Assembly: GCA_030612835.1 (NCBI GenBank)
Contig: JAUWND010000009.1
Coordinates: 1-33,451, forward strand
DNA: 33,451 bases
Direction: 5' to 3'
From: Candidatus Methanophagales archaeon
GTDB taxonomy: Archaea; Halobacteriota; Syntropharchaeia; Alkanophagales; Methanospirareceae
Position 1 is the first letter of the stretch. Every line of letters begins with the position of its first letter. The position numbers and the translations under genes were made by a program. Of this stretch, positions 10,770-27,566 are shown in pieces. The notes under the pieces were generated by a model, which made no database searches, was not told where the DNA came from, and saw only the letters and a list, made by a program, of their open reading frames with translations.

Positions 10770-10825
10770 TTACTAAAGAACTAGTTTCTTTGGTAAAGCT
10801 TTCTTTCCTAAAGAAAGGTTTATAG
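10770..10825. repeat. Palindrome-rich repeat D upstream of gins51
   Basis: ACTAAAGAACTAGTTTCTTTGG is a near-perfect palindrome, and CTTTCTTTCCTAAAGAAAGG follows it as a second one. The segment TTTCTTTGGTAAAGCTTTCT at 10786-10805 recurs in reverse complement at the right end of the window (about 33391-33412, with one base different in the shared core). It lies between the gins51 promoter-like element and its ATG, so it would be in the 5' leader. Confidence 0.5.
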
Positions 10826-10857: not shown

Positions 10858-12042
10858 TCACTTAATTTCCGCAACTCCTCTACACATAAAATAAAGCGCA
10901 GCATGCTCCGGCATCGAGACAACTTCGCCTTCTTCCACCTCATAGCTTTCGCCTTTCATCGTTATCGATGAGTTTCGAGCAACTCTTATCTCTACTGGCG
11001 AATTACCAAATGCAACTGCATCCTCTAAGGGGTCAAAGTCATCAAAAGTTTCTATACTTAATGGCTTTACCTGCAAACTCGATTTGCCATGTAACGAAGT
11101 AGGCAGCCGGATAAGCCGTTTTATGTCTGCTGTGACCGGCGCGTCAGGTTTATCGGCATAAGCCGAGTATTTAGCCTCCGAACTTTTTGATAGGCCTTGC
11201 CAGATGGAATCAGAGAAGTGTGGTATTTGCCCTTTCTCTATCCTACTCATCACTGTTTCATCATTTGCAATTCGTAATATCTCTTTTGCTTTCTTCTTTT
11301 CCTTCGCCCCAACACTCTTTACCACTTTGATAGCTTGTTTTTCTTCCATCGCCGCTATTTCGTGCAGAAACGCTATTAATCCTTTAAGAACCCGTTTTCC
11401 CCAGCCCTCGGGAATCAACCTCAAGTCCTCTCTTCCGGTCTTTTTGCCGCTCTTATCTTTTGAATCAGCCACTAAAAAACTATTTATGTCCAGCCCGGTT
11501 GCCATTACATAATCAACAATCTCCCTTCGCTCTCTGCTTCCAAGCCCTCTTACTTGTTCTGTTTCTATATGTATGTGGTAGCCCCGCGAGCCTGAAAATA
11601 CCAGCTCTATCGTATTTTCCGGGAATCCGAAATCGTTGAGCAGGAAGTCAATCAGTTTCCGCGTTTCTTCTTTTACTGACTTTAATATGTCCTCATAAGA
11701 ATAACTCTGGAACTCCGCTTCGCCTATGACATGGTCTGCATCGAGGTCAAAAATTAGGTCAGCGCCGAGCCAATCTTTATCTGCCATCTTCGCCGTAGGA
11801 TATTTGTATATTGCTGTTGAGAAGTAGGCATGAGCAGGGGCATTTTCCCGGAGGTAATGCACTAACTCCTCCTCGGTTGCAAAGGCTTTGTGCCGCCGCA
11901 TCACGAGTTTCGCCGGGTAATAGTGGTCAAAGAGAACAAAACCCCACTCCCGCATCCATAAATCCGTTGGGATTTCTACTTTTACCCGCCTATAATAGTC
12001 ACCAAATTTGGCCGTCACGAATTTTTTTGTCTTCTCATTCAT
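10858..12042 (-). CDS. priS: DNA primase small (catalytic) subunit PriS
   Basis: This 394-residue protein makes RNA/DNA primers with PriL. The catalytic acidic pair lies at Asp99 and Asp101 (ADLIFDLDADH). The nucleotide-binding FSGSRGYHIHIE motif at 149-160 includes Ser150, Arg153 and His156. The third acidic site is expected in the FDDFDPL region near 340. RLPTSLHGKSSLQVKPL (about 318-334) is another primase signature. The length is normal for archaeal PriS. The ATG has no visible Shine-Dalgarno site, because a repeat-B arm ends three bases before it. It heads the block of minus-strand information-processing genes. Confidence 0.95.
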   Translation of the reverse strand: MNEKTKKFVTAKFGDYYRRVKVEIPTDLWMREWGFVLFDHYYPAKLVMRRHKAFATEEELVHYLRENAPAHAYFSTAIYKYPTAKMADKDWLGADLIFDLDADHVIGEAEFQSYSYEDILKSVKEETRKLIDFLLNDFGFPENTIELVFSGSRGYHIHIETEQVRGLGSRERREIVDYVMATGLDINSFLVADSKDKSGKKTGREDLRLIPEGWGKRVLKGLIAFLHEIAAMEEKQAIKVVKSVGAKEKKKAKEILRIANDETVMSRIEKGQIPHFSDSIWQGLSKSSEAKYSAYADKPDAPVTADIKRLIRLPTSLHGKSSLQVKPLSIETFDDFDPLEDAVAFGNSPVEIRVARNSSITMKGESYEVEEGEVVSMPEHAALYFMCRGVAEIK

Positions 12043-12044
12043 TT

Positions 12045-12066
12045 TGTAAAATCTCGTGGTTTTTTA
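12045..12066 (-). repeat. Partial repeat B arm abutting priS start
   Basis: On the minus strand this reads AAAACCACGAGATTTTACAA directly before the priS ATG. It matches one end of element B and is followed by a full repeat A at 12079-12167. The leader of priS is therefore made of repeat DNA. Confidence 0.6.
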
Positions 12067-12078
12067 TTGTATCTGAAT

Positions 12079-12167
12079 AAAGTATAGCTTCTACCTATTT
12101 AGGACGCAGATTTACACGGATTTAATTTTTTCCGTGTTAATTAATCTGCGTTAATCAGTGTCAATAA
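12079..12167 (-). repeat. Dispersed hairpin element A, copy 1
   Basis: On the minus strand it reads ATTGACACTGATTAACGCAG ... AATCCGTGTAAATCTGCGTC, CTAAATAGGTAGAAGCTATA, CTTTAT. This matches 25738-25833 almost base for base apart from small indels. The first two-thirds is an imperfect inverted repeat able to fold as a hairpin; the last third (TAAATAGGTAGAAG...) is a non-palindromic tail ending in a TATA-like motif. Confidence 0.75.
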
Positions 12168-12245
12168 TTTATTTTCTTGTTCGCTATTTTTTACCAAAGA
12201 AATCTTCAAAAAAAGGTATAGTAAAAAGGGAAAGAAAGAGGGAAC

Positions 12246-13127
12246 ATGATAAGCATAACGATACCAAAAGGAAGTTTAGAAGCGCAAACGCTGTTGCTAT
12301 TCAAGCAGGCCGACCTGGAAATAAAAGTGACGAGTAGAGAATACAGCCCGAAGATAGAAGACCCGCGGATAGATATTGTAAAGATATTGAGACCGCAGGA
12401 GATACCGGAATACGTGGAGAAAGGGTACTTTGACGTTGGCATAACCGGTAAGGATTGGATAGAGGAACGGGGTGCGGACGTAGTGGAAATAGCGGACTTG
12501 AGTTATAGCAAAGCAGCGGAGAAAGAAAGCACAGTAAATATCGTCCTGGCTGTGCAAGCCGACCGAGCGGATATAAAAGAGGCAAGTGATATACCGCCGC
12601 AGAGTGAAATAAGCACTGAATATCCAAACCTCACAAAATCGTTCTTTGACAAGCTTGGTATTCCAGTCCAGATATTCTTCTCTTACGGTGCGACCGAAGC
12701 GAAAGACATGATGGACTGCATAGTCGAACTCACGGAGACTGGCGAGACCCTAAGAAAGAACAACTGGCGGATAATAGACACGATACTGGAATCTTCTACC
12801 AAGTTGATAGTGAATAAGGACTCGTGGAATGATGCGGTAAAAAGGAAGGAGATAGAAGAGATAAGAACCTTGCTTGCGGGCGTGATAGAAGCAAGAGGAA
12901 AGGTATTGCTCAGCATGAATGTTGCGGAAGATAATTTGGCGGCTGTTGTGTCCGCGCTACCGGCAATGAAAAGACCCACTATATCGCAACTTTATGATTC
13001 CGAGCCCCGATATTATGCGGTGGAGACGGTAGTGAGCAAGCGTGATGTGAATATCCTAATACCTGAGTTGAAGAGCATGGGCGCTGAGGACATTATAGAG
13101 ATAGATATAACCAAGATAGTGAAGTGA
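12246..13127 (+). CDS. hisG: ATP phosphoribosyltransferase, long form (HisG)
   Basis: This 293-residue enzyme catalyses the first step of histidine synthesis, joining ATP and PRPP. Domain I/II features are IPKGSLEAQT at the start, FDVGITGKDWIEERGADV near 60-77, and the PRPP loop ETGETLRKNNWRII near 161-174. The C-terminal 80 residues (about 215-293) are the ACT-like regulatory domain of the long form (AVVSALPAMKRPTISQLY, later LIPELKSMGAEDIIEIDITK), which gives histidine feedback and removes the need for HisZ. GAGGGAA precedes the ATG. It stands alone, without other his genes in the window. Confidence 0.96.
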   Translation: MISITIPKGSLEAQTLLLFKQADLEIKVTSREYSPKIEDPRIDIVKILRPQEIPEYVEKGYFDVGITGKDWIEERGADVVEIADLSYSKAAEKESTVNIVLAVQADRADIKEASDIPPQSEISTEYPNLTKSFFDKLGIPVQIFFSYGATEAKDMMDCIVELTETGETLRKNNWRIIDTILESSTKLIVNKDSWNDAVKRKEIEEIRTLLAGVIEARGKVLLSMNVAEDNLAAVVSALPAMKRPTISQLYDSEPRYYAVETVVSKRDVNILIPELKSMGAEDIIEIDITKIVK

Positions 13128-13135
13128 TAGGCGTC

Positions 13136-13275
13136 CAATATCACTTCCCCAAATCTTTCGCCTGCATACCTGTATCAATTGGCAGACGTCCAATCCCTTT
13201 TTGACCACAAAATCAACTTCGCGGCCTTTATAAGTTCCAGTCGGTAAGTAGCTCAAAGAGTTCGTCTTTTCGCAT
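13136..13275 (-). pseudogene. Relict of a DUF4143-type AAA ATPase (two ends joined)
   Basis: Read on the minus strand, an ATG at 13273-13275 begins MRKDELFELLTDWNL and then stops. A shifted frame immediately after gives YKGREVDFVVKKGLDVCQLI. The first piece looks like the N-terminal end of archaeal DUF4143 ATPases, the second like their C-terminal nuclease-like segment (EVDFVVKKG...LIQV). Together they suggest that the middle of the gene, some 350 codons, has been deleted. It is convergent with hisG. The match rests on short motifs, so the family call is moderate. Confidence 0.6.
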
Positions 13276-13375
13276 TTGGGGTGCCTTTCGTTATCTATTT
13301 ATCTTATTCGCTTCTATATAAATCTCTTCCAAATTTAATCTATATAAAGCTCAAAAATGGAGGTGTTTGAACTAC

Positions 13376-13492
13376 ATGTGGATTGAAATTAGATTGGATT
13401 TGGTGCAGCAGTTGCAATCATGCAAACAGTTACGGGAACTCACAAATAACAATTTACCAGAACGGTATGTATCATTTTCCAAGGATTTTTAA
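13376..13492 (+). CDS. Small ORF with strong expression signals, possibly truncated
   Basis: It encodes 38 residues beginning MWIEIRLDLVQQLQSCK and ending PERYVSFSKDF. A GGAGGTG site lies ten bases upstream of the ATG, and two TATA-like boxes (TCTATATAAATC at 13313 and TCTATATAAAGC at 13340) precede it at about the right distance. The reading frame ends exactly where hairpin repeat A begins, so it may be the front of a gene cut by repeat insertion or deletion. I recognise no family. Confidence 0.35.
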   Translation: MWIEIRLDLVQQLQSCKQLRELTNNNLPERYVSFSKDF

Positions 13493-13637
13493 GACACAGA
13501 TTAACGCTGATTAACACAGATTTAAAGTAGTGCAATAATTGATTTTTTAATTTCGATTCTATGAACCCGTAAAAAGTTAATAATTTTTTGGGACAGTAGC
13601 GTCTGTGTAAATCTGTGTAAATCTGTGTCTAAAATTT
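13490..13637. repeat. Hairpin element related to repeat A, long-loop form
   Basis: The left arm 13493-13525 (GACACAGATTAACGCTGATT, then AACACAGATTT) and the right arm 13602-13634 (TCTGTGTAAATCTGTGTAAA, then TCTGTGTCT) are imperfect inverted repeats around about 75 AT-rich bases. The arms match those of the compact copies at 12079 and 25738, but the TAAATAGGTAGAAG tail is absent. The next 100 bases (13638-13735) hold only a TATA-like CATTTATATTAC near 13679. Confidence 0.65.
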
Positions 13638-13749
13638 GGCTACAAATATTTATTTTTGTGTGCTCGCTAAAGCAACAAACATTTATATTACTCTGCGTTA
13701 ATCTGATAATGTCAAGCTGAAATCAGTATTATACGGTGGTGAGAGGGAA

Positions 13750-14652
13750 ATCACATTAGAACCGAAGACCAGGAAACGTACATTCGCATGCGCAGCAGCT
13801 ATTTTAATGGTTATTGCCGCCTTAACGCTATTCTCCGGCTGCGTTGAAGAAGATGGAGATCGTCAACTCGACCTCGGGGAGCCGATGAAAAAGGTAAATC
13901 ATTATGTAGGCACAGAAGGCTTCAACGTAGATGTAGATGATATATTTGGAGAAAAAAGCATATATTACCTGGCAGAGCAAGAGACAGGTGCAAAATCCTC
14001 TGGTATGGAATTTAAGCCATGTGCGGAAGTTGTAGAAGAAACATATCTTGGCGAGGACGGTGCCGAGATAAAAAAATACAAAATCGGCAATAAGCGTTAT
14101 GATGAGCAGGAAATCAAAAAATCAGGCATAAATATAGAAGATTCGTATCTCCCTAAAGACAAAATCCCCCTGATGATAAAAAAACTCCCTGACGGCACTT
14201 ACGATCTTTCCGACCTGACAAAATCCACCGAGGCTGTTGGCTGGGAGCATATAACCAAGACAGGCTATTTCCCGGGATCAGATAAAAACCCAAAAGCAAA
14301 CGATAACATCATAGGCAACAACGGTAGAAAGCCCGAGTTGCGCAATGAGCTAACTCCCGCTCCTGACGGCGAAGGTCTCAACTATATTATGTTTTTTAAT
14401 AAGGCCTATCTGGATGAGTATAAAGAATTGGCTCTCTATGGAATGCCCCCAGGAGAGAAATTGCCAGATAAGAATGAATTCCGGTGGGTGAATAAAGTGA
14501 GGTTGAAAGAACCAATACAAGCATACAAAGAATTATTCGGCGGAGATTTATGCTATACCGACTCAACTATTTATCCCGATTGCACTGACGCACTAATAGC
14601 GGGTTCTCCTGGCTGCGAATGCGGTACAATTATCCAAAAAAAAGCAGCATAA
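13750..14652 (+). CDS. Predicted lipoprotein, unknown function, atypical start
   Basis: The protein has a lipobox LTLFSGC with a Cys 16 codons after the first ATG (13807). That ATG would leave out the basic N-region. If translation begins at the ATC codon at 13750, the protein starts TLEPKTRKRTFACAAAILMV and has a complete lipoprotein signal, and a GGTGGTGAG site sits seven bases before the ATC. No ATG, GTG or TTG is in frame upstream before the stop at 13699. The start is therefore either non-standard or damaged by one base. The mature part of about 260 residues is hydrophilic and acidic, with six cysteines (four in the last 45 residues: CYTDSTIYPDC, CECG). I recognise no domain. It is convergent with a frameshifted gene. 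Confidence 0.7.
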   Translation: MTLEPKTRKRTFACAAAILMVIAALTLFSGCVEEDGDRQLDLGEPMKKVNHYVGTEGFNVDVDDIFGEKSIYYLAEQETGAKSSGMEFKPCAEVVEETYLGEDGAEIKKYKIGNKRYDEQEIKKSGINIEDSYLPKDKIPLMIKKLPDGTYDLSDLTKSTEAVGWEHITKTGYFPGSDKNPKANDNIIGNNGRKPELRNELTPAPDGEGLNYIMFFNKAYLDEYKELALYGMPPGEKLPDKNEFRWVNKVRLKEPIQAYKELFGGDLCYTDSTIYPDCTDALIAGSPGCECGTIIQKKAA

Positions 14653-14658
14653 CATCTC

Positions 14659-15050
14659 TTACTGGTCAATTATCCCGTTCGGCCACTTGTCCCCGGCCAT
14701 TGTCCCTGCAAGCAGCCATGCCCCCGCAGCTGACACGGCAGTGGTCGTCGCGCAGTACGCAGCTATTGACCCTGGTCCCGAGGGTGACGCAAGTATCCCG
14801 ACAGCAACTCCAAGAGTGACTTCTCCTGCAATAAGGCCACTTCTGTCCTGCTTGCTTTGTCCCATTTTCTCTCGTAGCAGAAATTCGGCTTATAGTCACT
14901 ATACCCCTCTGCCTTGATTTTTATGCAGTCCACAGTCTTATCAGGCCCCTCCCAGAATGCCCACCAGTCGCCCTTGACGCAGCTCTTGTAAGGCGTACTC
15001 TGGCCGTAGTTGTTCTCATACCGGTCTATCACAGATAACTTATAATGATT
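14659..15050 (-). pseudogene. Frameshifted small membrane-protein gene
   Basis: The upstream reading (about 15042-14870) gives SVIDRYENNYGQSTPYKSCV then KGDWWAFWEGPDKTVDCIKI and KAEGYSDYKPNFCYE. After that the plausible sequence moves by one base to a frame beginning MGQSKQDRSGLIAGEVTLGV, with two hydrophobic stretches (GEVTLGVAVGILA and AAYCATTTAVSAAGAWLLAG), ending at 14659. Continuing in the first frame gives an unlikely tail. I read this as one gene with a +1 frameshift, or two overlapping genes. Its N-terminus runs into a repeat-B arm at 15051, so the true start may be lost. Convergent with the lipoprotein gene and spaced seven bases from it. Function unknown. Confidence 0.5.
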
Positions 15051-15086
15051 ATTCTCTCGTGAAAATCTGTGTAATCTTGTGGTCTT
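15051..15086 (+). repeat. Single arm of repeat B
   Basis: ATTCTCTCGTGAAAATCTGT, GTAATCTTGTGGTCTT matches the right arm of element B at 4455-4488. It separates the broken membrane-protein gene from the ATPase gene and supplies the GTG that would be the first possible start of the ATPase frame. Confidence 0.7.
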
Positions 15087-16491
15087 AACCCTGCAGCCTT
15101 TTATATATTTCAAGCACGATTATAATAATCATGATCAAACAAAATTCGTTGATCGAGAACGCGAGCTGAAGATACTTAAAGATGCATACAATTCTGACAG
15201 GGCTGAGTTCATAATTTTATATGGCCGCAGAAGAATCGGCAAGACAGAACTGTTAAAACAGTCAAAACAAGAAGAAAAATTCGTTTACTTCTTTGTTGAA
15301 GAAGCGCTGGAAGAAGAGAATTTGAACACATTCAAGGATATAGTTGCCGGATTCTTATCCAATCCCTTAATCGCGAAGGCCGAATTATCATGGACGGATT
15401 TATTCACAGAGCTTGCAAAAATAGACAATTTGGTTTTGATTTTCGATGAATTCCCAAACCTCGTAAAGAAGAATAAACGATTTTTATCGCAATTCCAAAA
15501 GATCTGGGACGAGTTGCTGGTTAATACGACAATCAAATTAGTTGTCTGCGGCTCATCTATTTCATTGATGGAGACCCATCTTTTGGGTTATCAATCGCCG
15601 CTGTATGGTAGACGAACCGGTCAAATATTGCTGCCACCACTTAAATATTATCACCTAAAGGAGTTCATTGAACTTCCGGTTGATGATATTATCAAGATAT
15701 ATGGCATAACAGACGGAATACCATATTACATTCTGGACGCTGCGTACAGGCTAAAGAATAACGAGCAATTAGAAGATATTTTCATGCCGGGCCGGATATT
15801 ATTTGAAGAAGCGGAAATCCTGATAAAATACGAATTGCGTGATCCGACAAGATATTATAAGATACTCAAGGCTATTTCGTTCGGCTATACCAAATTCGGC
15901 GATATTGCTACATATACGGGTTTCAGTACGAGCATAGTCTCCCAATATCTGAGCAATCTAATAAAATTGCATATTATTGAATATACGTATCCGCTTGGAG
16001 AAAGGAAGGAGAAAGCACGAAATAGGCGATATACCTTCGCGGACAATTACTTCCAGTTCTATTTCAGATTTATTTATCCGCACAAATCAGAACTCTTAGA
16101 AACAGGACGTATAACTAATTTCGGTGCAAAATTCAATCAGTATATGGGCACGGTATTTGAAAAAGTCTGCAAGCAATTTCTTCTTCTAAACCGTGATAGA
16201 CTGCCGTTTACATTCACAAAATTAGGCCGCTGGTGGCATAAAGATAAAGAAATAGACGTTGTTGCTCTGAACGAAGAAAGCAAAGAGATCGGATTCTTTG
16301 AATGCAAATACAGTAGCCTGAAGTTTAAGGACGCTTTAGACATCATTGCCGAACTGAAAAATAAGAGCAGATATGTTGACTGGAATCGAAACAAACACAA
16401 AGAGCATTTTGGTCTGATTGCAAAGAAGATCGACGGTAAAGCGAGACTCAGAAAAGAAGGCTATTTTGTATTCGATTTTGATGACTTTTAG
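15079..16491 (+). CDS. Archaeal ATPase with DUF234-type nuclease-like C-terminus, copy 1
   Basis: The frame holds 470 codons. A STAND/AAA-like NTPase domain has Walker A at 49-56 (GRRRIGKT) and Walker B Asp123-Glu124 (LVLIFDEFPNL), with the GSSISLME sensor near 154. A winged-helix region lies around 265-320. The C-terminus has a PD-(D/E)xK-like pattern: Asp in KEIDVVAL and ECK in FFECKYSS. Related archaeal ATPases are abundant, mobile and of uncertain role. The GTG at 15079 lies inside a repeat. A TATA box (TTATATAT, 15101-15108) sits 27 bases before an ATG at 15131 that would give a leaderless MIKQ start but is one base out of frame, so a one-base loss in the A run at 15138-15144 is likely. 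The last 74 residues are nearly identical to those of the next gene. Confidence 0.85.
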   Translation: MVLTLQPFIYFKHDYNNHDQTKFVDRERELKILKDAYNSDRAEFIILYGRRRIGKTELLKQSKQEEKFVYFFVEEALEEENLNTFKDIVAGFLSNPLIAKAELSWTDLFTELAKIDNLVLIFDEFPNLVKKNKRFLSQFQKIWDELLVNTTIKLVVCGSSISLMETHLLGYQSPLYGRRTGQILLPPLKYYHLKEFIELPVDDIIKIYGITDGIPYYILDAAYRLKNNEQLEDIFMPGRILFEEAEILIKYELRDPTRYYKILKAISFGYTKFGDIATYTGFSTSIVSQYLSNLIKLHIIEYTYPLGERKEKARNRRYTFADNYFQFYFRFIYPHKSELLETGRITNFGAKFNQYMGTVFEKVCKQFLLLNRDRLPFTFTKLGRWWHKDKEIDVVALNEESKEIGFFECKYSSLKFKDALDIIAELKNKSRYVDWNRNKHKEHFGLIAKKIDGKARLRKEGYFVFDFDDF

Positions 16492-16537
16492 GCAGGACCA
16501 TGTATCTGCTAAAAAGTCAGTAGAATTTTAAGCAGAC

Positions 16538-16671
16538 AATGCAAAATGCAAAATGTAAAATGCAAAGTTCATTAAATAGCAATAATGGATGTTTTAGAGC
16601 GAAAATAGCGCTTTCCCGCCAAGACCGCATATTTTGCATTTTTATATTTGCACTTTTCTGCATTTTGCAAT
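16538..16671. repeat. Inverted-repeat element C (ATGCAAAATGC type)
   Basis: The left end (AATGCAAAATGCAAAATGTA, then AAATGCAAAG) and the right end (ATTTTGCATTTTTATATTTG, then CACTTTTCTGCATTTTGCAA) are imperfect inverted repeats built of ATGCAAA units around about 60 bases. It occupies most of the gap between the two ATPase genes. No coding sequence is inside. Confidence 0.6.
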
Positions 16672-16747
16672 ACACCAAAAACTTTATATAACCCAAATTA
16701 GGATAATATCTATTATATTACCAACACAAATAGAAAAGAGGTGAACT

Positions 16748-18103
16748 ATGAAATTCATAAACCGTAAAAACGAGTTGGATGCAATCAAAACGAAATTAAA
16801 CGGGCCTGATTTGGATTTATATGTCATCTACGGACGGAGAAGAATAGGAAAGACAACGCTTGCACTTGCCAGTGTAAAAGGCAAGGAATATATCTATTAT
16901 CTTGCAACCGAAGAGAACAATCTCAAAAAGCTCAAAGACGTTGCTTCTCGGGTGCAACCCCGAATAAAATATGTGGAGGCGGATCTGGAAGCCATATTCA
17001 ATTTCTTGAAAGACAAGATAATAATTATTGATGAATTTCCAAACCTGATAAAAGAGAACCCGAAAGTCGTTTCCGAACTCCAGAGGATAGTAGATGTCCT
17101 TCTTGCAAATACAAAGACGAAATTAATACTACTTGGCTCGTCCATATCAATGATGGAAAGTCAGGTTTTGAGCTATCACGCACCCTTGTATGGCAGAAAA
17201 ACGGGGCAGTTGAAATTGAGCGCTATGAAATTCGCGGAATTAACCGACTTTTTCCCGGGTTCTACAACAGAAGAACGTATAGAAATATACGGCTTTTCTG
17301 ATGGCATCCCCTACTATCTTACGAAGATAAATTACCCGTTCTGGGAATGGCTGGATGCTGAGCTGAAGATGGTAGACACATTTTTAAAATCTGAGATTGA
17401 TTTCATCATGAAATATGAGTTTAGTGATGTGAAGACATATAAGAAGATATTAGGTGCTATTGCTTTGGGCCATACGAAATTAGGTGAAATTAGAGATCAT
17501 ATCGGCGCTAAAGGCACAGATATAAGCCCATATCTTAGAAACCTGATAGATGTAGAGCTTGTAGAAAGGAAGACGCCATTGATAGATACTGTTAAGTCAA
17601 GAAGAGGCCGGTATTATATCAGCGATAATTTCGTCAATTTCTGGTTCCGGTTCATTAATCCGAACATAACATTTATAGAAGAGGCGATTTTTTCGGCTAC
17701 TGAAATTAAGGCCGTGTATAACCGCTATCTCGGACACGTGTTTGAAAATGTCTGCCGCGAATTTTTAATTGAAAAACGGGACAGTTTACCCTTTAGAATC
17801 CAGAAAATCGGTGGGCTGTGGGGCGCAATCCCGAAACACGAAAAGGGTAGGAATCAGTATGAGATAGATATTGTCACTCTGAACGAAGAAAGCAAGGAGA
17901 TCGGATTCTTTGAATGCAAATACAGTAGCCTTAAGTTTAAGGACGCTTTGGCTATCATTGCGGAACTGAAAAATAAGAGCGGATATGTTGACTGGAATCT
18001 AAACAAAAGAAAAGAGTATTTTGGCGTGATTGCGAAGAAGATCGAGGGTAAAGAGAGACTCAGAAAAGAAGGCTATATCGTATTCGATTTTGATGACTTT
18101 TAG
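16748..18103 (+). CDS. Archaeal ATPase with DUF234-type nuclease-like C-terminus, copy 2
   Basis: This 451-residue paralogue of the preceding gene keeps the same order: Walker A at 29-36 (GRRRIGKT), Walker B Asp95-Glu96 (IIIIDEFPNL), the GSSISMME sensor and YGFSDGIPYYL near 180-190, then a winged helix and the nuclease-like C-terminus with EIDIVTL and FFECKYSS. Here the start is normal: GAGGTGA six bases before the ATG and TATA boxes upstream (TTTATATAAC near 16682). The N-terminal three-quarters is clearly diverged from copy 1, but 65 of the last 74 residues are identical by my count, and the coding DNA there is also very close. Function unknown; such ATPases are often linked with mobile or defence islands. 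Confidence 0.87.
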   Translation: MKFINRKNELDAIKTKLNGPDLDLYVIYGRRRIGKTTLALASVKGKEYIYYLATEENNLKKLKDVASRVQPRIKYVEADLEAIFNFLKDKIIIIDEFPNLIKENPKVVSELQRIVDVLLANTKTKLILLGSSISMMESQVLSYHAPLYGRKTGQLKLSAMKFAELTDFFPGSTTEERIEIYGFSDGIPYYLTKINYPFWEWLDAELKMVDTFLKSEIDFIMKYEFSDVKTYKKILGAIALGHTKLGEIRDHIGAKGTDISPYLRNLIDVELVERKTPLIDTVKSRRGRYYISDNFVNFWFRFINPNITFIEEAIFSATEIKAVYNRYLGHVFENVCREFLIEKRDSLPFRIQKIGGLWGAIPKHEKGRNQYEIDIVTLNEESKEIGFFECKYSSLKFKDALAIIAELKNKSGYVDWNLNKRKEYFGVIAKKIEGKERLRKEGYIVFDFDDF

Positions 18104-18138
18104 ATTATGGATAGAGAACCTGATACCTAACACCTAAT

Positions 18139-18170
18139 CCTCTCTGCGAACTCAGCGTTCTCTGCGGTAA
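18139..18170 (+). repeat. Short CTCTGCG-type dispersed repeat
   Basis: TCCTCTCTGCGAACTCAGCG followed by TTCTCTGCGGTA is a degenerate tandem of CTCTGCG(A/G) units. Such short intergenic motifs are widespread in prokaryotic genomes; its role is unknown. Confidence 0.4.
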
Positions 18171-18200
18171 TGTCAGGTAAATCTTCATTTGTGTGTTCCC

Positions 18201-19487
18201 TTATGGGCCCACGGGATATTGAGCAGTTACAACCCGCTCATATCGCTCTTCTTCCCCCAGCACCTTCGTCGCATCTATTCCGAGCTTCGATGTCAGCCCA
18301 TTTAAAGTAGAAGGGTCAAGTGAAGAACCCTTTGCTTTTGGTATCAACACCACATCTTCATCCCATCGAACCCGAGTCGCTATTGCATACTCCACATCAT
18401 TAGGGTTAAATATATCTATATCGTCATCCACAACGACAACGCGTTTTAGGCTGGGATGAGCGGCAAAAGAAGCGATAACTGCATTCTTTGCCTCGCCCTC
18501 TTTTTCCTTCTTTATCTGCACTACCGCATGTAAATAGCAGCATCCGCCATCTGTCAAGAAGACGTTCTTCACTCGTGCCATACGCTCAACCGCTCTAAAG
18601 ATCAAAGGTTCGTAAGGCACGCCCATAAGCAGCTTGTGCTCCGCACCTGAAGGCAGGATAGCATGATAAATCGGATCTCTTTTGTGATACATCCGTGTAA
18701 GTGTGACAACCGGCTCCTGCCTTACTTTGTCATAGGTGCCGGTAATATCCAAAAACGGGCCTTCTTTTGCACGTTCGTCACCTATGAACCCCTCAAAGGC
18801 GATTTCAGCATGAGGTATCGCCACACCGTTATCTAATTTGAAAAGCTCTATCGGTTCGCTTTTCAATGCAGAGGCATATTCAAATTCCTTGCCCGGTGGC
18901 ACTCTTGTCGCTGCGGCCAAAAGGATAAGAGGATCCACTCCGATTGCTATTCCTACTTTCAATTCCTCGCCTCGTTCTATCGCTTCACGATGCATCATAT
19001 ACAAGTGCCGGGAAGGGACAAGCCTCGCGGCTAATCGTTTATCGTCTAATACCATCATCCGGTGAAAAGATGCATTTCTCACGCCATCTAATTCCGCAAC
19101 TACTACACCACTCGTGATATAAGCGCCGCCATCTCTACTGAAATATGTTAATATCGGTAACTCGCCCAAATCCGGCTCTTTAACCACTTCTCTCGTCGGT
19201 GAATCCGCTACTATGTTCACCGTGCCGCCCTCGCCCCCTTCAGGTATTTTAGCCATGAATTGCACTGTCTTTGCAGTTGTTGTACCAAGTAACTCAGCCA
19301 GTGTGTTTCGCCCGCCAACTAAGTTCATTATGACTTTATGCGAACCGTCAACAGCGTGGAAAAGAACCGGCTGACCTTTTTGCTCATGCGCTGCACATAT
19401 AGATGCCACCTCGTATTTTGATGACACTGCCTCCCCTATTTCTATTACCTTTCCTTCTCGCGCTAATATATCTATGAACTGTCTCAT
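18201..19487 (-). CDS. UbiD family decarboxylase (possible anhydromevalonate phosphate decarboxylase)
   Basis: This 428-residue UbiD-type enzyme would use prenylated FMN to remove CO2 from an unsaturated acid. Signatures include VRNASFHRMMVLD (136-148, cofactor/metal region), PHAEIAFEGFI (225-235) and EGPFLDITGTY (242-252), and the C-terminal VVVVDDDIDIFNPNDVEYAI. In many archaea the UbiD homologue makes isopentenyl phosphate precursors by decarboxylating trans-anhydromevalonate 5-phosphate. The length and archaeal setting fit that role, but quinone-related or aromatic-acid decarboxylases look alike. No ubiX or aconitase-X gene is nearby. AAGGTA lies about nine bases before the ATG. A divergent PyrF gene lies just upstream on the same strand. 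Confidence 0.88.
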   Translation of the reverse strand: MRQFIDILAREGKVIEIGEAVSSKYEVASICAAHEQKGQPVLFHAVDGSHKVIMNLVGGRNTLAELLGTTTAKTVQFMAKIPEGGEGGTVNIVADSPTREVVKEPDLGELPILTYFSRDGGAYITSGVVVAELDGVRNASFHRMMVLDDKRLAARLVPSRHLYMMHREAIERGEELKVGIAIGVDPLILLAAATRVPPGKEFEYASALKSEPIELFKLDNGVAIPHAEIAFEGFIGDERAKEGPFLDITGTYDKVRQEPVVTLTRMYHKRDPIYHAILPSGAEHKLLMGVPYEPLIFRAVERMARVKNVFLTDGGCCYLHAVVQIKKEKEGEAKNAVIASFAAHPSLKRVVVVDDDIDIFNPNDVEYAIATRVRWDEDVVLIPKAKGSSLDPSTLNGLTSKLGIDATKVLGEEERYERVVTAQYPVGP

Positions 19488-19539
19488 TTTTCGTATACCT
19501 TATATCATATCTTGTAGCCTTAGGGGCCTTATTTATACT

Positions 19540-20301
19540 TCATAAAAAACTTTGGGTTACTTCACATAACCGCTTTGTGGCTTCTTTGATGTCTTTTGCA
19601 GCGTATATCGCCCTACCTACGATCGCATAGCTCGGGAAATGCTTTACCGTTTCAAATGCCGCTACTATATCGCCACCCTGGTGTTCTTTACCTATTCCAG
19701 GAAAGAGAAAATTCGGCTCTTTTAGTTCCTGTTCTAATAATGTGCAGTACTCCCTCATCTTTTCTATTTTGGTCCCGGGAATTACGAAATGCTCAACCCC
19801 TAATTTTGCAGCGTCCATATACATTCTCTTTGGTGCATCATCGGCGATATAACCGCCTTCACTTCGTAGATATTTGCTGTGTGTCATCTCACCACCAACT
19901 ATCGGCGTTAAGCCGAACTTAAAACAGCCCTTAACCTTTTCCTTTAGCTTTTCTGTTCCTACACCAATAACGGCTGCTTTTAAAGTTTCCGGTCCCGCTT
20001 CCGGGAATATTATGACCGAACTTATCCCCGCATCCTTACAAACCGCTAATATGTCACCACCACATATTTCGGGGATGTCTGACCCTAATTTCTGGTGGTC
20101 GTAGATTATCGGAAGATCGGTATATGATAAAATCGTTTCACATATATGGGGTAATCCATAGTTCAATGCTAATATAGCCCCTACTTTATAACCCACTACA
20201 CCCTCTATGTTGCTTGTCTCTTCTACTATCCGCTTTAACTCGCCTATATCTTTCACATCACAAGCAGGCATAATCCCATATCTTGACTTGAAGAGTTGCA
20301 T
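19540..20301 (-). CDS. pyrF: Orotidine 5'-phosphate decarboxylase-like protein (PyrF)
   Basis: The protein has 253 residues of TIM-barrel type. Lys39 in GYKVG and the motif DHQKLGSDIPE at 68-78 correspond to the catalytic Lys/Asp/Lys/Asp set of OMP decarboxylases, which make UMP. Canonical enzymes have DxKxxDI; here the spacing is DxxKxxxDI. The phosphate-binding end is FPGIGKEHQGGDIVAAFE with IVGRAIY near 230. I take it as a divergent OMPDC, the likely partner of the PyrE-like protein at 171-914. Its start is probably leaderless: a TATA-like TTTATAAACC lies about 28 bases before the ATG and no ribosome site is seen. Confidence 0.78.
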   Translation of the reverse strand: MQLFKSRYGIMPACDVKDIGELKRIVEETSNIEGVVGYKVGAILALNYGLPHICETILSYTDLPIIYDHQKLGSDIPEICGGDILAVCKDAGISSVIIFPEAGPETLKAAVIGVGTEKLKEKVKGCFKFGLTPIVGGEMTHSKYLRSEGGYIADDAPKRMYMDAAKLGVEHFVIPGTKIEKMREYCTLLEQELKEPNFLFPGIGKEHQGGDIVAAFETVKHFPSYAIVGRAIYAAKDIKEATKRLCEVTQSFL

Positions 20302-20347
20302 TTTATCTTAAATAAATAATCCATACCGGTTTATAAAATTTCCCTTT

Positions 20348-20376
20348 TTATGAAAATCCGTGTAATCTTGTGGTTT
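20348..20376 (+). repeat. Single arm of repeat B
   Basis: TTATGAAAATCCGTGTAATC, TTGTGGTTT repeats the element-B arm. It lies between the pyrF promoter region and the 3' end of the antiporter gene and ends at the antiporter stop codon. Confidence 0.6.
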
Positions 20377-22262
20377 CATGGTGCCAGCCACCCGTGTATA
20401 AACATAACGATCAAATAAATAGCGAAGAAGAGAAGCACTATCATCACTCCGGCACCTATGCTTAATTTCTCCATCGGCTCGTCCACAAGTTGCGGCTTCT
20501 CTTCTTTCAGATCACGCTCTTGTCCATTATCTTCAGAACCAAACGGGTTCCGCAACTTTGTGCATGTCGCTGTTATCAACACGATAGAAGCAGCCGCGGG
20601 ATTCCTACTGAACCAAACGGCGGAATCTGTGAGCCTATGTACGCCACTGTCCATAGCATTCGCAAAAGCCGTCAGCGGTTTCTCGCAGAACCATATAATA
20701 CCTCTTCCTGCCTTCCGGTATATGTAATCTATATCATACGTTATCCGCTCATGTGGCATAATCAGTACTCTAAATGCGAAGAACATAAACGCGGTCATCG
20801 CCAGTAACTCCAACGTGCCTACTGTATGTGCAAGAGCGAACGCATCGTAGTGTAATGCAACCGCTTTATAAGGTAGAATTTCATATAGCATCTTCGGATA
20901 CACACCAAAGGCAACGCAGAGGAACGCTACAACGCACATTGGAATAAGCATAAATATTGGCGCTTCCTTTGCTTCTATCTCATCATTTCTCCTGAAAAAG
21001 GTGAAATAAGTGAGTTTTAAAAACGACAAGAAAGTACCTATCGAGCCCAACATCAAAACGAGTGCAAGAATATGCATATGTGACAGTTCCGCAGCGTGTA
21101 TTATCATCCCTTTACTTACGTATCCATTAAACCCAACAACACCCGAAATAGAGAGAGCTGCTATTATGCACGTTATCGTCGTTACCGGCATCTTCCTCGC
21201 CAGTCCACCAAGATCTGTGAGGTTTCTCCTGCCTGTTGAATATATCACTGCACCCATACACATAAACAGAAGCGCCTTATACAGGATATGGTTGAAAACA
21301 TGGGCAATACCTCCGTTTATCCCTATGTACGTGCCTATTCCCACTCCCGCCACCATGTAGCCCACCTGAGATATGATATGATAAGAGAGAAGTTTCCGCA
21401 CGTCATTCTGCAGCAGTGCAAATACAACTCCGTATACACACATCAAGCCGCCTATGTATGCTATAAATGGGATTCCATCACCGAAGAATAGCGAAAGTTT
21501 TGCACCCGGAAAAGTCCTCGCAAGCACATATACGCCCGTCTTTGTCGTAAATACACACATGAATACTGCACCCGCGAGTGTTGCCTTCGGATATGAATCC
21601 GGCAGCCAGGTATGCAGAAATATGAATGCCGTGTTCACGCCTATTCCAATAAGCAGGAGGAAATACCCTATGCCCATTTCCACCGGGAAATGCCCTATGC
21701 CCAAAGCTCCCGGTACTAGCGAGATAGCGCCTGTGCTCATGTAATTTATTATTATCCCCGCGAGAAGGGCACATCCACCGAACAAATGAAACAGGATATA
21801 TCGCATCCCCGCGTTCGTTGCCCGCTCTGTCCGGGTGTACCAGATCAACCCGAGTGAAGCGAACGCCATTATCTCCCAGAAGATATAGAGCGTAAAGAAG
21901 TCGCCGGCAAATACCGCGCCCATCGCGCTTCCTAAATATAACAAGCCACACATAAGCTCGCCATTCTCTTTTACTATGTCTAACGAATATAATATCGCAG
22001 CAGCGCCTATTATGGCAAATATATAGCCCATTATCAGGCTCAATCGGTCAACATATAAGAATGTCAGATCTAATCCAGGTAGAACTGCGAATACCCAACC
22101 TACGTGTTGTTCTAATACTACCACACCGATTAACCCCACCACCGCTAAGAGAATAAGATAAACCTTCCTCGCGCTGCCCTTACCGAACAGTGGTAATAAC
22201 GCAGCCCCGAGGAAATAAATGATAAAAGGCGGTATATTTGCAATACTACTAATATCAATCAT
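20376..22262 (-). CDS. Proton-conducting antiporter subunit (MrpD/NuoL-like) with long C-terminal tail
   Basis: This 628-residue membrane protein belongs to the Proton_antipo_M family with about 14-16 helices. The conserved Glu of the fifth core helix is present (FFTLYIFWEIMAF). The helix that usually carries a lysine before the PxHxWLPD motif reads GIGVNTAFIFLHTWLPDSYP, so that lysine is absent; the next lysine is present (FTTKTGVYVLAR). The C-terminal 150 residues (from about RITYDIDYIYRKAGRGI) form a linker, a charged segment and a last helix; a matching tail is a separate gene at 28549. It overlaps the upstream small gene by eight bases. It may work in an Mrp-like or energy-converting complex; no other standard Mrp subunits are here. 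Confidence 0.88.
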   Translation of the reverse strand: MIDISSIANIPPFIIYFLGAALLPLFGKGSARKVYLILLAVVGLIGVVVLEQHVGWVFAVLPGLDLTFLYVDRLSLIMGYIFAIIGAAAILYSLDIVKENGELMCGLLYLGSAMGAVFAGDFFTLYIFWEIMAFASLGLIWYTRTERATNAGMRYILFHLFGGCALLAGIIINYMSTGAISLVPGALGIGHFPVEMGIGYFLLLIGIGVNTAFIFLHTWLPDSYPKATLAGAVFMCVFTTKTGVYVLARTFPGAKLSLFFGDGIPFIAYIGGLMCVYGVVFALLQNDVRKLLSYHIISQVGYMVAGVGIGTYIGINGGIAHVFNHILYKALLFMCMGAVIYSTGRRNLTDLGGLARKMPVTTITCIIAALSISGVVGFNGYVSKGMIIHAAELSHMHILALVLMLGSIGTFLSFLKLTYFTFFRRNDEIEAKEAPIFMLIPMCVVAFLCVAFGVYPKMLYEILPYKAVALHYDAFALAHTVGTLELLAMTAFMFFAFRVLIMPHERITYDIDYIYRKAGRGIIWFCEKPLTAFANAMDSGVHRLTDSAVWFSRNPAAASIVLITATCTKLRNPFGSEDNGQERDLKEEKPQLVDEPMEKLSIGAGVMIVLLFFAIYLIVMFIHGWLAP

Positions 22263-22446
22263 CTTGCTGCCCCTCCCTTTGTATTAGCGACAATATCTGC
22301 ATCGCTACCAGAAATAATCCAACGCCTACCATACCGAATACGAGATAGAAACCCATAATATGTTCATCATACATAAATAATACCAAGGCTACACCCAATA
22401 CTACCGCTATTCCTACCAGCACTATTTTTAGTATCTTCCCGATCAT
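22255..22446 (-). CDS. Small two-helix membrane protein linked to antiporter subunit
   Basis: It encodes 63 residues with two hydrophobic helices (about 4-25, LKIVLVGIAVVLGVALVLFM, and 30-52, MGFYLVFGMVGVGLFLVAMQ) and a short charged tail. A GTG at 22476 in the same frame would begin before the likely transcript start: a TATA-like TTTATAAG lies at 22478-22487, so I choose the ATG at 22446, which has GGTG nine bases upstream. The stop overlaps the next gene's ATG by eight bases, so they are co-translated. It could be a small accessory subunit. I recognise no named family. Confidence 0.75.
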   Translation of the reverse strand: MIGKILKIVLVGIAVVLGVALVLFMYDEHIMGFYLVFGMVGVGLFLVAMQILSLIQREGQQDD

Positions 22447-22500
22447 TGCTGTCACCAATACAACGTAATTTACCACGTTTTATAAGTTTTACCAAGAAAT

Positions 22501-22857
22501 CTATGCTGATGCATAGGTATCTTCATATGTAAGTGTATAGATAGGGGAGGTTTGCAAGTATCCGCTCATAATTCGGTGGAAGGGGGAAGGTTCTGAAAGC
22601 CGATAGTATGTCGCCTTTTCTCGCTCTACCTTCTCCACAACGCCTTGTTTGAGCAGAGAATTCCCTGCATCGAACCTGTTCCCCATCCCCCTCAGCCCAC
22701 CTAGGATATTTGTAGGGTCTATCCCGGTGTTTCTGGAAATCTCCGCAGGATACGAAGCATTTGGATAGATCTTATAGAGATACATTGCGATTTCCGTCCT
22801 TACTCGGCTCCTTCTGAGAGAACGCAAGACCTCCTCAAATTGTACTTCCTCGCTCAT
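22501..22857 (-). CDS. Winged-helix transcriptional regulator, archaeal
   Basis: It has 118 residues. LRRSRVRTEIAMYLYKIYPN, ASYPAEISRNTGIDPTNILGGLRGMG is a typical wHTH (about 12-58), followed by a wing (VVEKVEREKATYYRLSE). The C-terminal 30 residues have no clear motif. The start has a GGGGAAGAGCGAGGG site directly before it. It sits 54 bases before the antiporter pair on the same strand and faces the TM-repeat family gene at 23132 across 275 bases. A palindrome over its own promoter region suggests autoregulation; the target genes are a guess. Confidence 0.85.
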   Translation of the reverse strand: MSEEVQFEEVLRSLRRSRVRTEIAMYLYKIYPNASYPAEISRNTGIDPTNILGGLRGMGNRFDAGNSLLKQGVVEKVEREKATYYRLSEPSPFHRIMSGYLQTSPIYTLTYEDTYASA

Positions 22858-22930
22858 CCCTCGCTCTTCCCCTGCTGTTTTTCGCGTGCATCAAATAAAT
22901 TCTTCTTCTGCATCTTTTTCCTACCACCTT

Positions 22931-22956
22931 TTATTATTGCCGTTTTGGCATAATAA
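22931..22956. promoter_or_regulatory. Palindrome over the promoter of the winged-helix gene
   Basis: TTATTATTGCC-GTTTT-GGCATAATAA has matching arms (TTATTATTGCC against TTATTATGCC read in reverse complement). On the minus strand it contains CTTTATTAT, a TATA-like sequence with the regulator start about 75 bases away. It is a plausible operator. The rest of 22858-23131 holds the TATA box for the gene at 23132 and nothing else I recognise. Confidence 0.45.
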
Positions 22957-23056
22957 AGAAAAATTTTGAGCATTTTCCAACTTCACTTGTAGCCCATACT
23001 ATCCCGCCATGTAACTATACTAAATAAACGCTCAAAAAGAACAAAAAAATCGAAAG

Positions 23057-23070
23057 ATATTTATATACCC
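23057..23070 (+). promoter_or_regulatory. TATA box of TM-repeat family gene 1
   Basis: ATATTTATATACCC, preceded by TCGAAAG. The same arrangement (CGAAATCTATTTATATACC) precedes the family gene at 32387. Both leaders also share TTCAAG(G/A).AAAGATGGGCA at the start codon. Confidence 0.6.
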
Positions 23071-23131
23071 TTCTCACATTCAAAGCTTATAAAGTAAGAA
23101 ATAAATAAGGGATAGGTGTTTCAAGATAAAG

Positions 23132-24085
23132 ATGGGCACATCGAAAACGCTCGCAGAGATAATGATGGATTGGCGCACTCTGGCAGTGATAGCGCTTGTG
23201 ACGATTGGATGGCGAACTTATGTAAGTATTGATGGTACGATAGCGCTTTGGGAAAGTGTCTGCTCAGGTGTTGTTCTCATGATATTTGGCTGGGGTATCT
23301 TTGGTTATCTCTATGCCATGTCTAAGCGAGATACAAGCTGGCTAATATCAAATAAGCTAGCTCAGGGGCTCGCCATTAGCACAGGTGTCTTAAATCTTTA
23401 TGTTCTTATTTACTACGGGATGAGATGGCCGAGATTAATGGCGGGAATGGAAGCTTATGTAGAAGCCTATATGCCGCAGGATTACCTTCTCCGGAGCTTG
23501 AGATACGCCATGTTAGTGCTGGCGTATTGTGGTATTATCTGGGCGACCGGGCATCTAAAGAAGATGCACGATAATTACATGTTGATAACAGAAGATATGC
23601 CGGAGGTGCAAAGGAAGGGTGCGGCAGAGACAATGTTCAGGGTAATTACCGATGAACGAACAGTAATCGTGATATTGGGTGTGGTGTTTTTATGGCGCGC
23701 CGTCATAAGTCTTGACGGACAGATAGAGCTCTGGGAGAGTATGTGCTCAGGTATTGCTCTTTCCATGTTGGGTTGGGTTCTCTTCGGGTACATAAGTTCA
23801 TTGGCAGTGAGAACAACCAGACCAAGCGTAGCAAAGATATATCAAGGGTTTGCCTTTGCTATATTCGCTGTAGACGTATATGTTCTCGTTTACTATGGTA
23901 TGAGGTGGTATACCTTACTACAGTTGTATCCAGCTACGGAGGAAGCTATAATGCCAATGGCTTATGTCTTTAGAGATATAAGATATTTTGTGTTGGCGAT
24001 ATTTTTCTGCGTAACCATAGTCTTTTCCAAGTATCTGGAAAAAGCCTCTGGTGAGTGTGAGTACTTGACAAAGAAAGAGGCATGA
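23132..24085 (+). CDS. Tandem-repeat 8-helix membrane protein, unknown family, member 1
   Basis: The protein has 317 residues in two homologous halves (about 12-150 and 170-310), each with four hydrophobic helices. Each half has, in order: WRT/WRA with IS.D (first helix end), LWESxCSGI and GWxxFGY (second helix), a Q-G-x-A helix ending YYGMRW (third), then a MPxxY...RxxRY segment before the fourth helix. The first half ends LKKMHDNY, the second SKYLEKA. I know no family with this pattern. Related halves occur in the proteins at 24171 and 32387 and in the fragment at 25472. It is preceded by a TATA box and lies divergent from the regulator gene. Function is not evident; Arg, Glu, Asp and Cys conserved at helix ends could bind an ion or cofactor. 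Confidence 0.88.
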   Translation: MGTSKTLAEIMMDWRTLAVIALVTIGWRTYVSIDGTIALWESVCSGVVLMIFGWGIFGYLYAMSKRDTSWLISNKLAQGLAISTGVLNLYVLIYYGMRWPRLMAGMEAYVEAYMPQDYLLRSLRYAMLVLAYCGIIWATGHLKKMHDNYMLITEDMPEVQRKGAAETMFRVITDERTVIVILGVVFLWRAVISLDGQIELWESMCSGIALSMLGWVLFGYISSLAVRTTRPSVAKIYQGFAFAIFAVDVYVLVYYGMRWYTLLQLYPATEEAIMPMAYVFRDIRYFVLAIFFCVTIVFSKYLEKASGECEYLTKKEA

Positions 24086-24170
24086 GGTAGAGAATACCCC
24101 TTCCTTGACATCCGGGAATTTAGTTTGTAATAATAAATATTCGTACGGGTACGTGATAGGATATGTCAAG

Positions 24171-25127
24171 ATGGACAAGAGAGAATCCATATTTAAGTTG
24201 GTAACAGACGAACGAATATTGATATTGATAGTGGGGATTGCCATTCTATGGCGAGGAGTCATAAGCTCAGATGAAACTATATCCTTCTGGGAAAGTGTAT
24301 GTTCTGGTATTACGCTTATCCTAATGGGCTGGGTTATCTTTGGTTACCTGTATTCTATGTGCCAAAAACCGACTGACTGGCCAGTCACAAGTAAGATTTA
24401 TCAGGGTATTGCCGTTAGCCTTCTCGTTTTAAATATCTATGTGGCTATTTACTATGGGATGCGCTGGTTCGGGATACTGCACGAAGAAGTATATATGCCG
24501 CTGGATTTTGTCTTCAGTGATGTAAGATACCTCATGTTAGTGCTGTATTACTGCGCAGTATTATGGACAACGAGGTACTTAAAGGGGATGCGGGATAAGT
24601 ACCGATTGCTAATCAAAGAAAGACCGAAGAGGCACGACACAACATGTATGAAAAGATATGTAGTATGGGTGATAATGCATGAACGGACATTAACAGTGAT
24701 AGTGGTAGCAGCGATTTTATGGCGGATCGCTATAAGCGTTGACCATACCATAACATTTAGGGAAAGTGCAATCTCATGTGTTACCCTGCTCATATTGGGC
24801 TGGTTTCTCTTCGGTTATATATGCGCATTGTCCGTGAAAGCAAAACGCAAGATAGAACTGACTAGGGTCATCCAGGGGATTGCCTTTGGTCTAATGGCGA
24901 TAAACATTTATGCTATCTTTTACTACGGGATGAGCTGGTATGTATTAATACTAGGCATGGGTGATGTATCGGGGACTTATGTGCCTTTTGATCTCATTTT
25001 CAGAAATATACGATACATCATGTTGGTAATATTTTACTGTACTGCAATAGTGTTATCGAAGTTCTTAGATAAGGCATATACGGATTATACAGTACCAATC
25101 AATAAAAGCGCAAATTTAAATGACTAA
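24171..25127 (+). CDS. Tandem-repeat 8-helix membrane protein, unknown family, member 2
   Basis: It has 318 residues and two halves of the same four-helix unit (about 9-140 and 162-310). Conserved features: TDERILILI...LWRGVIS, FWESVCSGI, YYGMRW, VFSDVRY, then MHERTL...LWRIAIS, YYGMSW, FRNIRY, SKFLDKAY. The second half has lost parts of the motif (FRESAISCVTLL instead of WESxCSGI). The frame is open 22 codons further, but alignment to the other members and the TCAAGATGGACA context support this ATG. It follows member 1 by 85 bases on the same strand. Its 3' end overlaps the convergent 82-residue gene by 12 bases. Confidence 0.87.
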   Translation: MDKRESIFKLVTDERILILIVGIAILWRGVISSDETISFWESVCSGITLILMGWVIFGYLYSMCQKPTDWPVTSKIYQGIAVSLLVLNIYVAIYYGMRWFGILHEEVYMPLDFVFSDVRYLMLVLYYCAVLWTTRYLKGMRDKYRLLIKERPKRHDTTCMKRYVVWVIMHERTLTVIVVAAILWRIAISVDHTITFRESAISCVTLLILGWFLFGYICALSVKAKRKIELTRVIQGIAFGLMAINIYAIFYYGMSWYVLILGMGDVSGTYVPFDLIFRNIRYIMLVIFYCTAIVLSKFLDKAYTDYTVPINKSANLND

Positions 25128-25364
25128 CATGCCCTTGTTGTAAAGTAGCGACATTGCATACGCCAACATACAAAATGCAAGGAAGACAAGCGCTAAGAAG
25201 ATACCGGCGTAAAAGCCTACACTCTCCACGTCTACCCCGGGGCAATTCGTCTTTACGGATTCTATCGCTTTCGGATCATTAGGCTCCAAAGACATCATGA
25301 GCCTCATTGTACCCGCGGGGCATTTAAAAAAACATTTCAGTGCACCAAAGAATTTACTTCCCAT
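25116..25364 (-). CDS. Small single-helix protein, unknown function
   Basis: It has 82 residues: a Cys-containing N-terminal part (KCFFKCPAGTMRLMMSLEPN), an acidic middle and one C-terminal helix (YAGIFLALVFLAFCMLAYAM). The ATG has a strong GAGGTGGAGG site. On the minus strand a TATA-like CTTTATAAGG near 25453-25463 would place the transcript start before a short 18-codon frame (MKMTSPKEIKEVEEGNGK) that overlaps its start. It converges on family member 2. It may be a partner of the nearby membrane proteins, but this rests only on position. Confidence 0.65.
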   Translation of the reverse strand: MGSKFFGALKCFFKCPAGTMRLMMSLEPNDPKAIESVKTNCPGVDVESVGFYAGIFLALVFLAFCMLAYAMSLLYNKGMLVI

Positions 25365-25471
25365 TCCCTTCCTCCACCTCTTTTATCTCTTTTGGGGACG
25401 TCATCTTCATCTCCTTTTCATCTCGATAGTAACGCTGTCTTCATATACACAACTTATACCTTATAAAGGTT

Positions 25472-25694
25472 TCGATATTTGTCGCTTGGCTTTGGGAGAG
25501 TATGTGTTCGGGTATAGCTCTTTTCATAATGGGCTGGTCTATCTTTGCGTACATATATTTAATGAGCAGGGGACTGAAGGGCTGGTTAAGATTGTGCAAG
25601 ATTTACCAGTGGATTATGGTTAACGAAATATCTGATGGAAATGCACCGGGATTATCTATTGGTAGTTGGAAAGGAGAGCAGCAGGTGTAACTAA
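25472..25694 (+). pseudogene. Broken copy of the TM-repeat membrane protein family
   Basis: One frame reads SIFVAWLWESMCSGIALFIM then GWSIFAYIYLMSRGLKGWLR, LCKIYQ, matching the end of the first helix, the second helix and the following loop of the family's first half. A second frame then reads LTKYLMEMHRDYLLVVGKE, matching the segment after the fourth helix (LKKMHDNYMLITEDMPE in member 1). The first helix, the third and fourth helices and the whole second half are gone, and the two blocks are out of frame. It is the remains of a first-half unit. Confidence 0.85.
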
Positions 25695-25737
25695 TAAGCC
25701 TTTTGTCAAGAAAGCATAAAATCCAACTAAAATTAAT

Positions 25738-25833
25738 TATTGACACAGATTAACACAGATTAACGCAGAAGAAATTAAATCCGTGTAAATCTGTGTAAAT
25801 CTGCGTCTTAAATAGGTAGAAGTTATACTTTAT
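25738..25833 (+). repeat. Dispersed hairpin element A, copy 2
   Basis: It starts TATTGACACAGATTAACACA and GATTAACGCAG, runs through a short AGAAATTAA loop, then ATCCGTGTAAATCTGTGTAA, ATCTGCGTC, and ends with the tail TTAAATAGGTAGAAGTTATA, CTTTAT. The two arms are imperfect inverted repeats. It matches 12079-12167 (other strand) along its whole length. It lies upstream of the RAM-domain gene. Confidence 0.78.
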
Positions 25834-25890
25834 CTACTAAAATATATAATTACCAATCTACAAATATATTGAATAAGTGGAGGTGATAAG

Positions 25891-27540: not shown

Positions 27541-27566
27541 TAAATAGGTAGAAGTTATACTTTATA
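27541..27566 (+). repeat. Tail fragment of repeat A carrying a TATA box
   Basis: TAAATAGGTAGAAGTTATAC, TTTATA is identical to the last 26 bases of element A at 25808-25833 apart from the final base. It ends in TTATACTTTATATACC, which has a TATA box 20-25 bases before the ATG of the next gene. Confidence 0.65.

Follow-up and report, generated by a model that had tools for sequence, protein, structure and literature searches.

A dispersed hairpin repeat of ANME-1 archaea as a probable miniature derivative of a one-gene GxxExxY element

Why do an imperfect hairpin and a tail with a TATA-like end recur together in a 33,451-nt stretch of a Candidatus Methanophagales contig (hereafter the window), and does the pair spread promoters, as an initial annotation of the DNA suggested it might? 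Our analysis supports reading the hairpin and tail as a mobile element. The unit, which we call element A, is probably a miniature mobile element of ANME-1, presumably non-autonomous, that arose by internal deletion from a larger element with a single gene, GxxExxY; judging from sequence, it may possibly also spread promoters.

The tail, with the consensus TAAATAGGTAGAAG(T/C)TATACTTTAT, has three exact copies in the window, at 12077-12101 on the reverse strand (TAAATAGGTAGAAGCTATACTTTAT) and at 25809-25833 and 27541-27565 on the forward strand, where dinucleotide shuffles give an expectation of 0.02. Two of these tails belong to near-full copies, which the initial annotation had recognized at 12079-12167 and 25738-25833; both intervals proved too short on the left, and the ends common to copies place the approximate limits at 12067-12179 (-) and 25707-25837 (+). 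Copy 1, upstream of the primase small subunit gene PriS (10858-12042, -), runs from the left end CAAGAAAATAAATTATTG at 12179 through a predicted hairpin at 12103-12162 (left arm 12140-12162, loop, right arm 12103-12124) and the tail to a right end reading ..GATACAA near 12067. Copy 2 begins with CAAGAAAGCATAAAATCC, continues with a predicted hairpin at 25742-25807 (left arm GACACAGATTAACACAGATTAACGCAG, right arm CCGTGTAAATCTGTGTAAATCTGCGTC) and the tail, and ends in ..TTATCTAC. Predicted RNA fold energies are -21.3 kcal/mol for the first hairpin (12077-12175, -), -29.3 kcal/mol for the second (25738-25833) and -44.6 kcal/mol for a long-loop hairpin at 13490-13637. The last had been noted as a relative of element A and is a real one: its arms (predicted at 13493-13631, +) consist of the same 10-nt units, though it lacks the tail. 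The tail also recurs by itself, as annotated, in copy 3 (27541-27569, +; right end TTATATAC), where nothing but the tail is present. Rfam had no match at the window hairpins. The window also holds repeated membrane-protein segments at 23168-25564 and 32423-33376 (direct repeats D1, D2 and D5), with a seemingly degraded copy near 25489-25564.

A genome-wide count, one of the checks proposed at the outset, found 69 tails with at most 3 mismatches in the window's own genome (G000; 2.51 Mb in 213 contigs) and none for a reversed control; with the three exact tails and the folds, this establishes the repeated hairpin and tail as real. Element A is a multicopy miniature element of ~110-130 bp, and its parts follow in a fixed order: left end ((A)CAAGAAAG.. 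or AACAAAACAAAATAAA..), left arm, short loop, right arm, linker and AGGTAGAAGTTATACTTTATATACAA. Directly upstream of 156 of 166 distinct tails, from this genome and its relatives, lies the right arm, across a linker mostly of 10, 15 or 19-20 nt that is built of TAAAY units. Conservation over 196 tails extends up to TATATACAA, drops for two positions and is followed by ARAAAR. Because right arms and hairpins are also found without this exact tail, the tail appears to be restricted to some lineages. The arms of a given copy pair better with each other than mixed arms do (0 of 200 permutations reach the observed pairing), a result that we set aside as proof of a structural function since related subfamilies could produce it. 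A third repeat, TTTCTTTGGTAAAGCTTTCTTTT, occurs in the window at 10785-10807 and 33393-33415 and, apparently nested, within the element A loops of six loci (L014, L017, L025, L051, L052 and L057).

The distribution of the tail is patchy. A GTDB scan for the exact 22-mer GTAGAAGTTATACTTTATATAC gave 78 stretches; apart from one titled Syntrophoarchaeum and one Halobacteria, every title names ANME-1 or Methanophagales. The IMG/VR viral collection contains no exact match to tail or arm. Among 51 genomes of the family, three genera have the tail in abundance, apart from one poor member, as does one of the eight species in a fourth genus; the other genomes have none, or single or stray copies. Small counts here are lower bounds because the genomes are drafts. 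Such patchiness is what is expected of a mobile element. Arms with recognizable tails also occur beyond the ANME-1 family f1, at two loci (L333 in G092 and L334 in G084) whose genomes are assigned to a different family of the phylum, through either horizontal transfer or binning error.

Comparison of orthologous sites shows what was inserted. At two pairs of loci (L027 versus L110 and L030 versus L142), flanking genes are 90-95% identical and both hairpin and tail are missing from the empty partner. The hemD site is filled in G000, G003 and G004 and empty in G001 and G002, and copy 2 of the window is missing at the orthologous place in G001, where a diverged sequence takes its place and the junction is approximate. 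At the 27541 site, G001 has neither the tail nor the gene at 27586, and the same gap in G004 holds an internally deleted GxxExxY element in the opposite orientation. Since orthologous sites in sister species lack both parts, hairpin and tail constitute one inserted unit, and the tail belongs to the element, as had been proposed. Copies at the same site in relatives, named beforehand as evidence that would speak against spreading, do exist at some places, and many other sites are polymorphic; the PriS site is occupied in G000, G001, G003 and G004, so some insertions are old.

The A-rich ARAAAR motif lies beside copies that face gene ends as well and was already there in the empty sites that we read, and for these reasons we take it to be an insertion target. 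With somewhat less force, the data indicate that element A enters intergenic gaps on the 5' side of an NNARAAAR target, without visible target duplication: none is visible at clean empty/filled pairs, and the ACAA present at both junctions does not, as read by eye, co-vary between them. At several sites (hemD, L011 and L012), the species that share the site carry different hairpins, loops or left parts there, and the hemD copies have a site-specific right end in common. Deletion, or exchange between copies, would account for this, and tail-only copies such as that at 27541 fit the same kind of reshaping after insertion. Other repeats have similar junctions. Upstream of SRP54 (L003, L242, L243 and L244), different repeat families abut approximately the same junction in sister species, and upstream of MtnP (L240) a family whose arms read CACCGAGACC../..CTCGGTGCTC likewise has TATATACAA as its end, followed by a run of A. 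These junctions hint at a target and end sequence common to several repeat families.

The ends of the unit point to its source. Left CAAGAAAG.. and right ..GTAGAAGTTATACTTTATATACAA occur both in miniature copies and in copies that carry GxxExxY, and in other ANME-1 genera many tails are preceded by pieces of a coding sequence. At one place (L120, the same as L282) the GxxExxY gene is intact, bracketed by GGACGCAGATAAACGCAGAT and ATCTGCGTAAATCTGCGTCC, with outer ends as in the miniature element; its protein matches TIGR04256 (2.8e-39; 134.1 bits against a cut-off of 35) and PF13366 (1.9e-41). A second intact gene (L283) keeps the left end and arms and has lost the tail. The window's own genome contains a full GxxExxY copy with both ends and a broken reading frame (L192); an active copy complete at both ends is not known from this genome. 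Deletion relics of GxxExxY number dozens per genome in two genera, many retaining only the two gene ends, and at one site three species carry three different internal deletions (L129, L151 and L153). Because the ends are the same and the gene is intact in one relative and variously deleted elsewhere, we regard element A as a probable internal-deletion derivative of the GxxExxY element. This deletion series, together with the empty and filled sites and the patchy distribution, bears out the dispersed and mobile character first suggested for the repeat. In a second GxxExxY subfamily (L284 and L286), the arms are GACAC..GATTAAC, like those of element A, and the right end (..TAAATAGAAGG..ACTTTATATAC) is likewise related. 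A second dispersed repeat, family B (CTCGTGAAAATCTGTGTAATCTCGTGGTTATAAAAAGGAGCTAAACAAATAC), lies in the window at 1-33, 75-142, 2886-2932, 4339-4399, 4447-4512, 12038-12068, 15042-15088 and 20333-20379, and its CTCGTGAAAATCTGTGTAATCTCGTGG matches the arms around intact ANME-1 GxxExxY genes (L254, L255 and L273).

The GxxExxY protein itself is predicted to be a PD-(D/E)XK nuclease of the Cas4/RecB/lambda-exonuclease type. Residues D77, E87xK89 and Q101xxxY105 are invariant in 23 sequences, supplying the D, ExK and QxxxY of such nucleases, and the AlphaFold model (pLDDT 89.8) has the corresponding fold, resembling Cas4 SSO0001, LHK-Exo, lambda exonuclease and Hjc, with 4ic1 and 3syy at E < 0.001. 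The literature searched, which excluded most subscription journals and is weak evidence on this point, contains no description of mobility for the GxxExxY/PDDEXK_3 family, and a search of it for the arm sequence and PDDEXK_3 returned no paper.

The explanation that we favor runs as follows. Hairpin and tail enter a site as one unit; in miniature and GxxExxY copies alike, the tail (..GTAGAAGTTATACTTTATATACAA) is the right end, which is conserved, and CAAGAAAG.. usually forms the left one. The hairpin arms are the inverted repeats that bracket the GxxExxY gene, joined up once the gene was lost, and the Cas4/lambda-exonuclease-like protein may be what moves the element. The right end might, in addition, give some downstream genes a promoter, softening insertion between co-transcribed genes. 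Several points weigh against this explanation: transposition itself is unseen, the window's own genome has no known active two-ended copy, right arms and hairpins occur without this exact tail, the two ends of the element do not form an inverted repeat, the tail shows no extra conservation where a gene follows, and GxxExxY may be a passenger.

The last point leads to a competing account, in which another agent (an HUH or IS200-IS605-type enzyme, reverse transcription or recombination between copies) moved the element and GxxExxY only traveled with it. The lack of visible target duplication, the left-truncated copies (L211, L213 and window 27541), the A-rich target at the right junction and the absence of GxxExxY from the known transposases would all suit such an agent. 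However, the copies examined contain no gene between these ends other than GxxExxY, and Rfam had no match in two GxxExxY-carrying loci. Inverted repeats flank GxxExxY genes more often than other short genes: of 25 GxxExxY genes, drawn from ANME-1 and further archaea, 18 exceed the 95th percentile of the controls, a comparison that is rough for the other archaea because the control genes came from ANME-1 loci only. On balance, we consider a separate mover unlikely, though a serious contender.

A different possibility concerns why copies persist. As a portable promoter under selection, element A would be kept mainly where its tail drives a downstream gene. When a TATA/BRE motif (AAAAGTTTTATATA) is learned from 115 promoters that lack the element, 62% of tails score highest at TTATACTTTATATA. 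Many copies lie just before the start codons of unrelated genes, core genes among them (SRP54, PriS, GrpE, HemD and IMPase); at several sites species share the right end and differ in the hairpin or left part; and in tandem gaps of the window's own genome 33 copies lie along the direction of transcription and 7 against it. Yet the target motif alone is biased ~2:1 in the same direction in element-free tandem gaps, which largely explains the 33:7 ratio and leaves a modest excess. Nor are tails better conserved near a codirectional start than facing gene ends (2.27 versus 1.88 mismatches, p = 0.78). The TATA-like box ends ~2 nt before the element does, and in ~14 of 48 codirectional cases the start codon follows it too closely; such distances are approximate, since a basic ORF-scoring routine supplied the gene starts. 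At PriS, two species have lost part of the TATA-like end. Selection for a portable promoter is thus doubtful as an account of the element's persistence.

For the gene at 27586, whose ATG lies 16 nt past the tail end, a transcription start ~20-25 nt past the TATA would fall within the first codons, so the second in-frame ATG, at 27598, suits better. An alternative working TATA, the TTTATAGG/TAAATAGG box further upstream, would have the right geometry for genes very close to the element, but we rejected it for its poor score against the learned motif. We take the tail to be the right terminus of the element and promoter activity to be a plausible by-product.

A fixed operator or promoter module of a regulon, which the highly conserved tail, the many copies upstream of genes and the PriS site common to several species could suggest, is highly improbable given the empty sites, the genera without any copy, the ~1/4 of own-genome copies that face gene ends and the GxxExxY gene enclosed by the same ends, and we dropped the regulon reading because the downstream genes are unrelated and the sites are polymorphic.

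If element A is indeed a derivative of the GxxExxY element, an abundant and so far unexplained hairpin repeat gains an origin, and GxxExxY, a common protein family of unknown role, gains a testable job. More tentatively, GxxExxY genes might define an undescribed class of mobile elements, with one Cas4/lambda-exonuclease-like nuclease gene and inverted repeats of short tandem units in several archaeal sequence flavors; the dispersed hairpins of families A and B would then be gene-less remnants, which in some ANME-1 lineages have a promoter-like right end. Should that right end be an active promoter, the expression of core genes (primase, SRP54, GrpE and HemD) would have been rewired in uncultured methane-consuming archaea. 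In that case, every pair of species with an empty and a filled site would offer a ready natural experiment.

Among known systems, the TIGR04256/PF13366 family clearly includes the gene of the full-length element, whose TIGR04256 score exceeds the curated cut-off. The IS200/IS605 group is defined by an HUH Y1 transposase, whereas GxxExxY is the only gene found here. Intervening sequences of 23S rRNA have ends that pair in a stem. Such sequences, for example in Coxiella, carry a small ORF within a selfish element (PMC4990558), as the GxxExxY element does; their location is 23S rRNA and their protein is S23, whereas GxxExxY elements are intergenic and encode a PD-(D/E)XK protein. MITEs are miniature derivatives of gene-carrying mobile elements. 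Element A shares with them its short length, multiple copies, presumed non-autonomy and origin as an internal-deletion derivative with the ends of its parent. We do not count it as a member because it has no terminal inverted repeats (CAAGAAAG.. and ..TATATACAA are not inverted copies, and the arms are subterminal), no visible target site duplication and no parental transposase, its parent encoding a PD-(D/E)XK-like protein that is no known transposase. Archaeal MITE examples are listed from Sulfolobus, Halobacterium and others (PMC10969869). The Correia repeat enclosed elements of Neisseria are short, hairpin-forming, multicopy and mostly intergenic, often 5' of genes, with promoter sequences at their ends and strain-specific insertions (PMC2649163, PMC10969869). 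Element A is likewise a short, mostly intergenic hairpin in many copies with a TATA-like match at its end; Correia elements, however, have terminal inverted repeats and experimentally proven promoters, whereas element A has asymmetric ends, subterminal inverted arms, a candidate promoter and a parent that carries GxxExxY. In how it works, element A is most like a MITE, and in its layout it is most like the Correia elements.
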